A DNA stretch of 40,369 nt from Desulfamplus sp. GTDB taxonomy: Bacteria; Desulfobacterota; Desulfobacteria; Desulfobacterales; Desulfobacteraceae. Below are positions 8,773-11,679 of the stretch, in pieces; position 1 is the stretch's first letter, and every line of letters starts with the position of its first letter. The position numbers and the translations under genes are program-made. The stretch is taken from positions 1-40,369 of the forward strand of contig JADGBC010000013.1 of NCBI GenBank assembly GCA_015231705.1. The letters run 5' to 3'. The notes under the pieces were generated by a model. The model was not told where the DNA came from, did no database searches, and worked only from the letters and a program-made list of their open reading frames with translations.

Positions 8773-9459
8773 CTAAATTTTGATCACTTTATCCGCAAAC
8801 TGCATGGAACTTACAATATCAAGCATATTTGTGGTCTCTCCGACTTTCTTTGCATCAAGAAGATTAAAGTGGGTCAGACAGGTGCCGCACACCATGATTT
8901 TTATCCCGTCAGCTTCATATTGCAGCAGATCTTCAAGCACCAGAGAGCCTTCAATGGTTAGTTTTACTCCATTGTTCACAAAGACAAGCATCCAAAGATC
9001 ATCTCCCATCTCTTTTATGGTTTTAATAAAGCTTACCATAAGTTTTTTACCAAGCTCGTCATCACCAAAGCCAACTCTGTCTGTTGCTGCAAAAACCATG
9101 ATCTTTTGTTGAGTCTCTTTAGCTGACAAATCATTGTTAGACAAGGAGGATGGTTGCGAACCTGACGATGTTGATGAAGGAGCCGAGGCTGAATATTTTG
9201 TTGTCTTTCCAGACTCTCCTGCTGACTCTGTAGTTCCAGCTAAAATATTGGCCTTTCCGGTTATCTCAAATTCTCCCTTTTTAGGAACAACTTCCACCTC
9301 AAATGACCTGGATGCTAAAAAACGTGAGACATTTTCCATAGAGGCTTCATTATCAACAACTATACTTATTTCCTGATGGCTTGAATCATCAAGAGCCTTT
9401 TTGACCATTAGAACAGGTGCAGGACAAGACAAACCGCGTGCATCAAATAGTTTCGACAT
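8773..9459 (-). CDS. yedF: Selenium metabolism protein YedF (TusA-like plus DsrE-like domains)
   Basis: A 228-residue two-domain protein. Residues 1-75 are a TusA/SirA-like sulfur-carrier domain with the Cys-Pro-X-Pro motif (FDARGLSCPAPVLMVKKAL, Cys12). A Ser-rich linker (about 76-112, SASAPSSTSSGSQPSSLSN) joins it to a DsrE-like fold (about 113-228) with FGDDELGKKLMVSFIKTI and the conserved VCGTCLTHFNLLDAKKVGETTNM. This two-domain form is found beside selD in many selenium-using anaerobes, and its function is not settled; delivery or channelling of selenium or sulfur is the usual guess. Here it is downstream of selD on the same strand with a 203-bp gap. The start is ATG with AAGGAAT upstream. 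Confidence 0.93.
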   Translation of the reverse strand: MSKLFDARGLSCPAPVLMVKKALDDSSHQEISIVVDNEASMENVSRFLASRSFEVEVVPKKGEFEITGKANILAGTTESAGESGKTTKYSASAPSSTSSGSQPSSLSNNDLSAKETQQKIMVFAATDRVGFGDDELGKKLMVSFIKTIKEMGDDLWMLVFVNNGVKLTIEGSLVLEDLLQYEADGIKIMVCGTCLTHFNLLDAKKVGETTNMLDIVSSMQFADKVIKI

Positions 9460-9662: not shown

Positions 9663-10766
9663 TTATTCCACTACAATCATCCCTTTGATATCTTTATTGT
9701 AATTACGCTCACAAACTCTGCCAATAATGGCGGCATCTTCGACTCCTTCGTCAATTAACATTTTTATTAGATGTTGTGATTGATTTTCAGGGCATCCCAT
9801 CAAAAGGCCTCCAGAAGTTTGTGGATCGAACAAAATATCTCTCATTATCGGTGTTACACTGGATTTTAATTCTACCAGGCATTGCCTGAACTTTCTGTTG
9901 CCATGAGCACCTGACGGCACAAATCCCATTGAAGCAAATTCCACAGTTTCCGGTAATATCGGTACAAGAGATGAATCAAGCACTGCACCGATATCACTGC
10001 CTGAAATCATCTCTGCCAGATGTCCAAGCAGACCAAAGCCTGTCACATCAGTACATGCAGATATATCAAAATTGTCCATAATTTTGGCGGCATACTTGTT
10101 TAGAGTGGACATAACACGCACTGCCAAATCAATGGTGGATTGAGATGCAAGGCCTCCTTTTACAGCAGTATTTATAATACCTGTCCCAAGAGGTTTTGTG
10201 AGAATCAGGCAATCCCCAGATTTCAACCCCTTATTTGCAAGTATTCTCTTTGGATGGACAAAGCCTGTTATGGAAAGTCCATATTTAAACTCGTCATCTT
10301 CAATGCTATGTCCTCCTAAAAGTACGGTGCCAGACTCTTTAAGTTTATCAATACCGCCTGAAAGCACTTCCCTTAAAACCTCACCCCCCAATTTTTGCAA
10401 GGGAAATGCCACAAGATTCATGGCAGTTTTTGGAACGCCTCCCATTGCATAGACGTCAGACAGAGCGTTTGCCGCAGCAATCTGACCAAAGGCAAACGGA
10501 TCATCAACAATTGGTGTAAAGAAATCAACCGTCTGAATCAGGGCAAGCTCTTCAGATATCTTATATACACCCGCATCATCAGAGGTTCCAATGCCAATCA
10601 GTACATTTTCATCTATAGGAAAAGATAGACCGCACAGTGCTCTCTCCAGATCCCCTGGAGAAAGTTTAGAAGCTCATCCTGCACCTTTCACGTTCTGGGT
10701 TAGCTTAACTTTTAAGCTTCTGTTTTTGCTGCGATTATGATCTTGTTGCTTATGAGTTTTTGTCAT
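9663..10766 (-). CDS. selD: Selenide, water dikinase (selenophosphate synthetase), a selenoprotein with in-frame TGA
   Basis: This enzyme makes selenophosphate from selenide and ATP for selenocysteine and selenouridine synthesis. A conventional open frame starts only at 10445 (MGGVPKTAMN), which would remove the catalytic N-terminus. Extending upstream in frame to ATG 10766 (ribosome binding site AGGGAA) gives a 367-residue protein interrupted by one TGA at 10676-10674, codon 31, in the context GAG-U-ASKLSPGDL. In known SelD this is the catalytic loop, with Cys or Sec exactly here (E. coli GAGCGCK). The frame continues through ATP-binding regions (TSDDAGVYK, TVDFFTPIVDDPFAFGQIAA, NALSDVYAMGG) into GGHSIEDDEFKYGLSITG, CTDVTGFGLLGHLAEM and FDPQTSGGLL. 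A hairpin nine bases past the TGA fits a bacterial SECIS. The residue after U is Ala. Automatic annotation would probably truncate this gene. Confidence 0.93.
10640..10664 (-). promoter_or_regulatory. SECIS-like hairpin for selenocysteine insertion in selD
   Basis: On the coding strand, nine bases after the TGA, CTTTCTCCAG (10664-10655) pairs with CTGGAGAGAG (10649-10640) through ten base pairs including one G-T pair. The loop is GGGAT (10654-10650), about 19 bases from the TGA. Bacterial SECIS elements lie directly downstream of the UGA inside the coding region, with an apical G-containing loop at about this distance, where SelB binds. The hairpin is seen directly; its function is inferred from position. 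Confidence 0.75.
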
Positions 10767-10954
10767 TTTTTATTCCCTAAAAAATATAAAGATCACAGAG
10801 ATGTGAATTAAATCTGAAATGTATTCTGGAAATGTAAATGTTCAAGAATAGACATAAAGGTAAGAAGAGGCAAATTGATAATTTGATTAATTAAGAATGA
10901 AAACGATAGCTTTTACAAATGGGATCTAAATATCGTTAATAAGGAGGGGTTGTA

Positions 10955-11167: not shown

Positions 11168-11560
11168 CTATTTGATTGAGGTTACAGCACAATGTGCTTT
11201 TAAGATTACAAATCTGGCTGTTGAACCGAGAATCATCTTCTGAGTTCTTGATTTCTTTTTGATTCCCACAAAAATATGATCAATGTCATTCTCTTTGGCA
11301 TACAAAACAATATCCTCTCCCGGAGAGAGACCTCTTACGCTCTGGTGTGCCAAAAATTTTACACCAGCATCTTCCATAAACTTTCTTGCAAACTCAAGAT
11401 CTTTTTCCGCCTGAACAATATCAGATGGTTTTTCACTATCTCCCCCCTCCATGGAGGTTATAACATGGACAAATGCGTTAGTGAGCAGAGCATAATCCCT
11501 TGCAAGTTTTAAAGCCCTTTCACCCACCTCGCCGCCATTGTATCCAACCATGATATTCAT
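11168..11560 (-). CDS. Universal stress protein (UspA family)
   Basis: A 130-residue single-domain protein. It starts MNIMVGYNGGEVGERALKLA, the usual first strand and helix of the UspA fold, and ends with VGIKKKSRTQKMILGSTARF, close to the G-2x-G-9x-G(S/T) ATP-binding motif of the nucleotide-binding subgroup. Such proteins are small cytoplasmic dimers whose roles are mostly stress- or energy-linked. ATG 11560 is chosen because GGAGAG lies just upstream; the frame also opens at TTG 11572, but that lies inside the ribosome binding site. It is the last gene of the leftward liv cluster, 119 bp after livF, so it may be co-regulated with uptake. Confidence 0.85.
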   Translation of the reverse strand: MNIMVGYNGGEVGERALKLARDYALLTNAFVHVITSMEGGDSEKPSDIVQAEKDLEFARKFMEDAGVKFLAHQSVRGLSPGEDIVLYAKENDIDHIFVGIKKKSRTQKMILGSTARFVILKAHCAVTSIK

Positions 11561-11679
11561 AGAACTCTCCAAACCGAGCCCAAACCCTTCAAGTCTGAGG
11601 AAAAAATATTAACACTTCTGGCCGTTGAATAAATTCATCACAATTCTGGCTGTGGAAATAGCCAGTTTTGATCTGTAAT

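Follow-up and report, generated by a model that had tools for sequence, protein, structure and literature searches.

FdhA and SelD are the most widespread bacterial selenoproteins according to a 2006 survey, which counted 38 selenocysteine (Sec)-type SelD proteins and listed this form for Deltaproteobacteria, Desulfotalea and Desulfovibrio among them (PMC1794560). A 2015 study found that 19% of the SelD genes in its prokaryote reference set encode Sec, and describes selenoprotein genes as usually misannotated (PMC4561486), and in a 2021 paper SelD, itself containing Sec, is named among the selenoproteins of marine Deltaproteobacteria (PMC8318568). A review lists the SelD family with the motif UxxK and models the bacterial SECIS element as a hairpin whose apical loop is small, has G as its first or second base (with G or U frequently coming next), and in most cases lies 16 to 37 nt from the UGA (PMC13188914). 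We analyzed a selD gene of Desulfamplus situated within a window of 40,369 nucleotides, this being the whole stretch of DNA under study. The gene resembles the Sec-type SelD, or SPS2 (TIGR00476, UxxK), in its family score, its motif, the positions of its TGA and of its SECIS-type hairpin, and the Sec machinery of its genome. It differs from that type in nothing of substance; the first residues, ahead of the conserved block, differ even among members of the genus. A literature search combining Desulfamplus with selenocysteine returned the genus name in a reference list only.

The selD reading frame and its TGA codon

The selD gene occupies positions 9663-10766 of the minus strand. By direct reading, its frame has the ATG at 10766-10764, a sole in-frame TGA at 10676-10674, and the stop at 9663; a candidate Shine-Dalgarno-like sequence, AGGGA (10774-10778, minus strand), is located 7 nt 5' of the ATG. 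The readthrough product is 367 residues long with selenocysteine as residue 31, contains the motif GAG-U-ASK-LSP, and has a mass near 39 kDa (computed with Cys at residue 31). When compared with NCBIfam model TIGR00476 it scored 374.3 bits (cut-off of 125), and the match covered positions 1-310 of the 311 in the profile and ran across the TGA. Residues 19-347 were aligned by phmmer (E=6.5e-73) to a Cys-type selenide, water dikinase, PDB 3u0o, which we take to be the E. coli SelD. Codon 31 falls on the Cys of GAGCGCK in that protein (GAG-U-ASK versus GAG-C-GCK), so the two differ there by Sec in place of Cys; the in-frame TGA is exactly at the catalytic Cys position and the UxxK motif is matched. 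The frame is confirmed as it was first read. The first-pass annotation had extended it through the TGA to obtain a complete SelD N-terminus with U at the catalytic Cys/Sec position, and its coordinates proved correct to the base.

The same annotation had anticipated that a standard gene caller would begin at 10445 and drop the active site, and the table 11 open reading frame is indeed 9663-10445, encoding 260 amino acids. Because ordinary calling starts there, 107 of the 367 residues are lost. This short reading and the draft status of the assembly are the points in favor of regarding the TGA as a sequencing error or a nonsense mutation, with the gene either broken or expressed from the internal start at 10445. 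The part of the protein that precedes this start, however, holds the catalytic loop, and the relatives speak against all versions of the idea, as follows.

We searched 145 genomes, the window's own included, and obtained a selD match in 130; the 15 without a match include three of the genus Desulfamplus that are 52-89% complete. At the order level the site was read in 90 loci from 87 genomes (30 + 60), two of these loci being at contig ends without the site, and codon 31 is TGA in all 88 loci that cover it (85 genomes). The six other members of the genus with a full-length SelD match all carry TGA at this codon. One TGA was counted in nearly all of the other matches among those listed, and the entries without TGA start after the site. 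For 43 wider named loci, TGA was found in 31 and a Cys codon (TGT or TGC) in 12; five of the 43 (L049-L053), with identities of 72-78% to the query selD in the best segment, are apparently the same Desulfamplus records as those of the genus members, including D. magnetovallimortis. Overall, the 133 loci (L019-L151) comprised 119 with TGA and 12 with TGT or TGC, or 131 in total, plus 2 cut by contig ends. Fourteen loci had been missed by the first motif search, of which twelve were read by position and two were the contig-end cases; a relaxed search recovered none of the fourteen, hitting only a wrong place in L149, and one false second match in L109 was removed. TAA or TAG codons that appeared besides TGA in four SelD matches are 5' of those genes' starts and not within the genes.

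On the conservation of TGA in relatives we reject a sequencing error or a pseudogene, including the isolated error that the first-pass annotation had named as a possible refutation, and a broken gene or internal start at this locus is extremely improbable. In the relatives of this bacterium, Sec-type SelD is the form that the gene usually takes. Several related genomes (e.g., G086 on contig C63, G037, G060, and G017) possess a second SelD of approximately 45-48% identity, with one TGA each. In G086 the two SelD genes are separated by about 3 kb; the draft genome to which the window belongs has one SelD over the cut-off and two further, weak matches.

The hairpin 3' of the TGA codon

A SECIS-type hairpin of 10 pairs (one of them G-U) with a 5-nt loop, GGGAT, was found at 10664-10640 on the minus strand, its first pair following 9 nt after the TGA, which agrees in stem, loop, and spacing with the 10-bp hairpin first annotated. 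The loop starts 19 nt past the TGA and opens with GG. The element thus shares a small apical loop, a GG opening, and the spacing with the bacterial consensus, as described in PMC13188914, and differs in that its core varies very little in sequence across the order of Desulfamplus, the loop reading GGGAC in 50 of 111 distinct sequences. This constancy arises partly because the encoded protein motif, PGDL, is itself constant. Loci having other residues at the core, such as L132, still fold a hairpin from different letters. A scan of the window against Rfam yielded no family at its gathering score; around selD there were five weak matches with E values up to 5, all far below the gathering scores.

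The stability of the 50-nt hairpin stretch was not unusual in comparison to dinucleotide shuffles (z of -0.72), with 38 of 200 folding at least as well. In a synonymous-codon control, for which the protein was fixed and codon usage was taken from codons farther along the same gene, supplemented by a pool (the 341-base loci contributing few codons of their own), the window's hairpin stretch ranked 6 of 200. After identical 48-nt sequences were collapsed, which reduced the Sec-type set from 119 to 111, the same control gave a mean z of -1.56, with 109 of the 111 below 0 and 42 ranking at or above tenth of 200, the latter amounting to modest support from single sequences. The corresponding mean z for the 12 Cys-type sequences was +0.42, with four below 0 and none at 10 of 200. 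Similarly, 110 of the 111 distinct Sec-type sequences have G as the first or second loop base, versus 5 of the 12 Cys-type sequences.

The upper 5 bp of the stem, which with the loop (10654-10650) make up the conserved core at 10645-10659 (minus strand), are 93% paired in the 111 Sec-type sequences versus 9-57% when partners were slid by 1-3 positions, and their pairing reaches only 43% in the 12 Cys-type selD genes. Pairing of the upper 6 bp is 88%, with 51 cells in which both sides have changed versus at most 41 in 500 shuffles and 6-24 for slid partners; the slid-partner control allows for relatedness and these shuffles do not. For the upper 5 bp alone the count of such cells is 15, barely above the 5-14 of the slid partners. 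Over its full 10 bp the stem is 75% paired, and its lower half is not conserved. We therefore regard the upper part as the conserved element. These comparisons support conservation of the stem beyond the demand of the protein sequence, for the upper 5-6 bp only. A chance hairpin is disfavored by the synonymous-codon control, the slid partners, and the Cys-type comparison; the dinucleotide shuffles alone would be insufficient to reject it.

Selenocysteine machinery and neighboring genes

The first-pass annotation had set beforehand, as a possible refutation, that selA, selB, and selC might be lacking from the genome, a Desulfamplus draft totaling 3.6 Mb over 282 contigs and 74.9% complete. All three are present. 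The tRNA-Sec (selC) scored 73.8 bits, over its cut-off, and was called by ARAGORN as tRNA-SeC with anticodon tca; SelB scored 359.3 bits and SelA 581 bits, both over their cut-offs, with the former showing GTPase, SelB beta-barrel, SelB-wing_2, and wing_3 domains. Two formate dehydrogenase loci (L158 and L159, contigs C31 and C83) carry TGA in the motifs RLUH and RIUH, one of them over the family cut-off and the other a partial match below it. Of the six FlpD matches, one (L153, contig C177) has a TGA, within CCNYU, and a TAA inside one FlpD match is that gene's own end. A possible shared loop sequence among the SECIS elements of SelD, FlpD, and formate dehydrogenase in this organism was considered over three TGA sites, a fourth match being a chance one on the opposite strand. 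At the sequence level, the machinery genes and the additional TGA sites make UGA as Sec a working trait of the organism.

These findings also bear on whether UGA 31 could be decoded as something other than Sec, for example as Cys or Trp by near-cognate readthrough, with the hairpin merely slowing the ribosome. The enzyme also exists normally with Cys at this site, as the 12 of 43 named loci illustrate, and this lends the proposal some sense; yet the genome has selA, selB, and selC, the hairpin core is retained where the codon is TGA and not where it encodes Cys, and a Cys codon, which would serve if Cys were needed, occurs in none of the 88 order-level loci. We consider such decoding very improbable. 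The homology, the TGA in 88 of 88 order-level loci, the SECIS controls, and the presence of selA, selB, and selC in the genome support SelD as a probable selenoprotein whose TGA is read as Sec with the aid of a SECIS-type hairpin.

More specifically, the gene is predicted with a probability of roughly 0.96 to encode an active selenophosphate synthetase having Sec as catalytic residue 31, inserted by SECIS/SelB decoding. The frame, the position of the codon, the conservation of the TGA and of the hairpin core, and the machinery genes form the basis of this reading in the sequence. By analogy to the known pathway, SelB carrying Sec-tRNA(Sec) would bind the apical loop of the short hairpin just 3' of the UGA as the ribosome arrives at codon 31, Sec would be delivered there before termination, and this residue, in the mobile N-terminal loop, would then join in selenophosphate synthesis. 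The selenophosphate would supply SelA and hence Sec-tRNA for SelD and for the other selenoproteins of the cell, such that the enzyme would depend on its own product.

The next gene downstream of selD is yedF (8773-9459, minus strand; TIGR03527, 204 bits), encoding a sulfurtransferase-like selenium metabolism protein; its 228-aa reading runs without an internal stop and has no Sec codon. A tblastn search detected a YedF-like reading in 25 of 72 loci from relatives, following selD in 23 of them and preceding it in 2, a count that includes four loci repeating the same records and that is a lower bound because the flanks are short. The two D. magnetovallimortis loci (L025 and L052), also with short flanks, gave no YedF-like reading in this search. 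Upstream of selD is a reading of the Universal stress protein family (11168-11572, minus strand; PF00582), followed by genes like those of branched-chain amino acid ABC transporters. Promoter and terminator scans returned 10 and 3 sites, respectively, versus shuffle means of 7.9 and 1.9, and were given no weight.

Autoregulation and selenium dependence

The dependence of SelD on its own product, as raised in the first-pass annotation, is a genuine circle on the sequence evidence. UGA 31 might then act, besides decoding Sec, as a gauge of selenium: scarce Sec-tRNA would lead to a stop at codon 31, so that SelD output would track the selenium supply, perhaps along with yedF by polarity. In addition to the circular dependence, this idea is favored by the position of yedF next on the same strand and by the finding of no Cys-type SelD covering the site among the matches listed from the 145 genomes. 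Against it, six genus-level sequences (one largely masked) showed no conserved leader ahead of selD, and no Rfam element was found; furthermore, low Sec-tRNA would be expected to lower SelD when more is needed, a positive feedback without evident benefit. We view a gauging role as unlikely. A more far-reaching version is doubtful in a still greater degree. It holds that, with SelD in the Sec form only and no Cys-type back-up, selenium activation in this lineage would be obligately autocatalytic, that restart after loss of SelD would occur only via rare UGA readthrough or inherited enzyme, and that the UGA and SECIS would impose a selenium-gated, possibly bistable control on selD and yedF.

The notion of autoregulation for a Sec-type SelD is not new and would follow from the circular dependence; Guimaraes and others raised the question in the title of their 1996 PNAS paper. 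Our literature search on SelD autoregulation combined with selenocysteine or selenophosphate synthetase found nothing, and the passages of PMC8211752 that we consulted have nothing on the subject.

We conclude that the Sec-type SelD of Desulfamplus is real and well supported but ordinary, being of a kind long known; it is the usual form among the relatives, and the family was already reported for Deltaproteobacteria in 2006. For annotation, the consequence is that an enzyme central to selenium metabolism loses its active site under ordinary gene calling, as is also expected in relatives. That a Sec-type SelD depends on itself has long been discussed as a question common to many bacteria, and with no Cys-type copy covering the site among the matches listed from the 145 genomes, this lineage is a fair place to test it.
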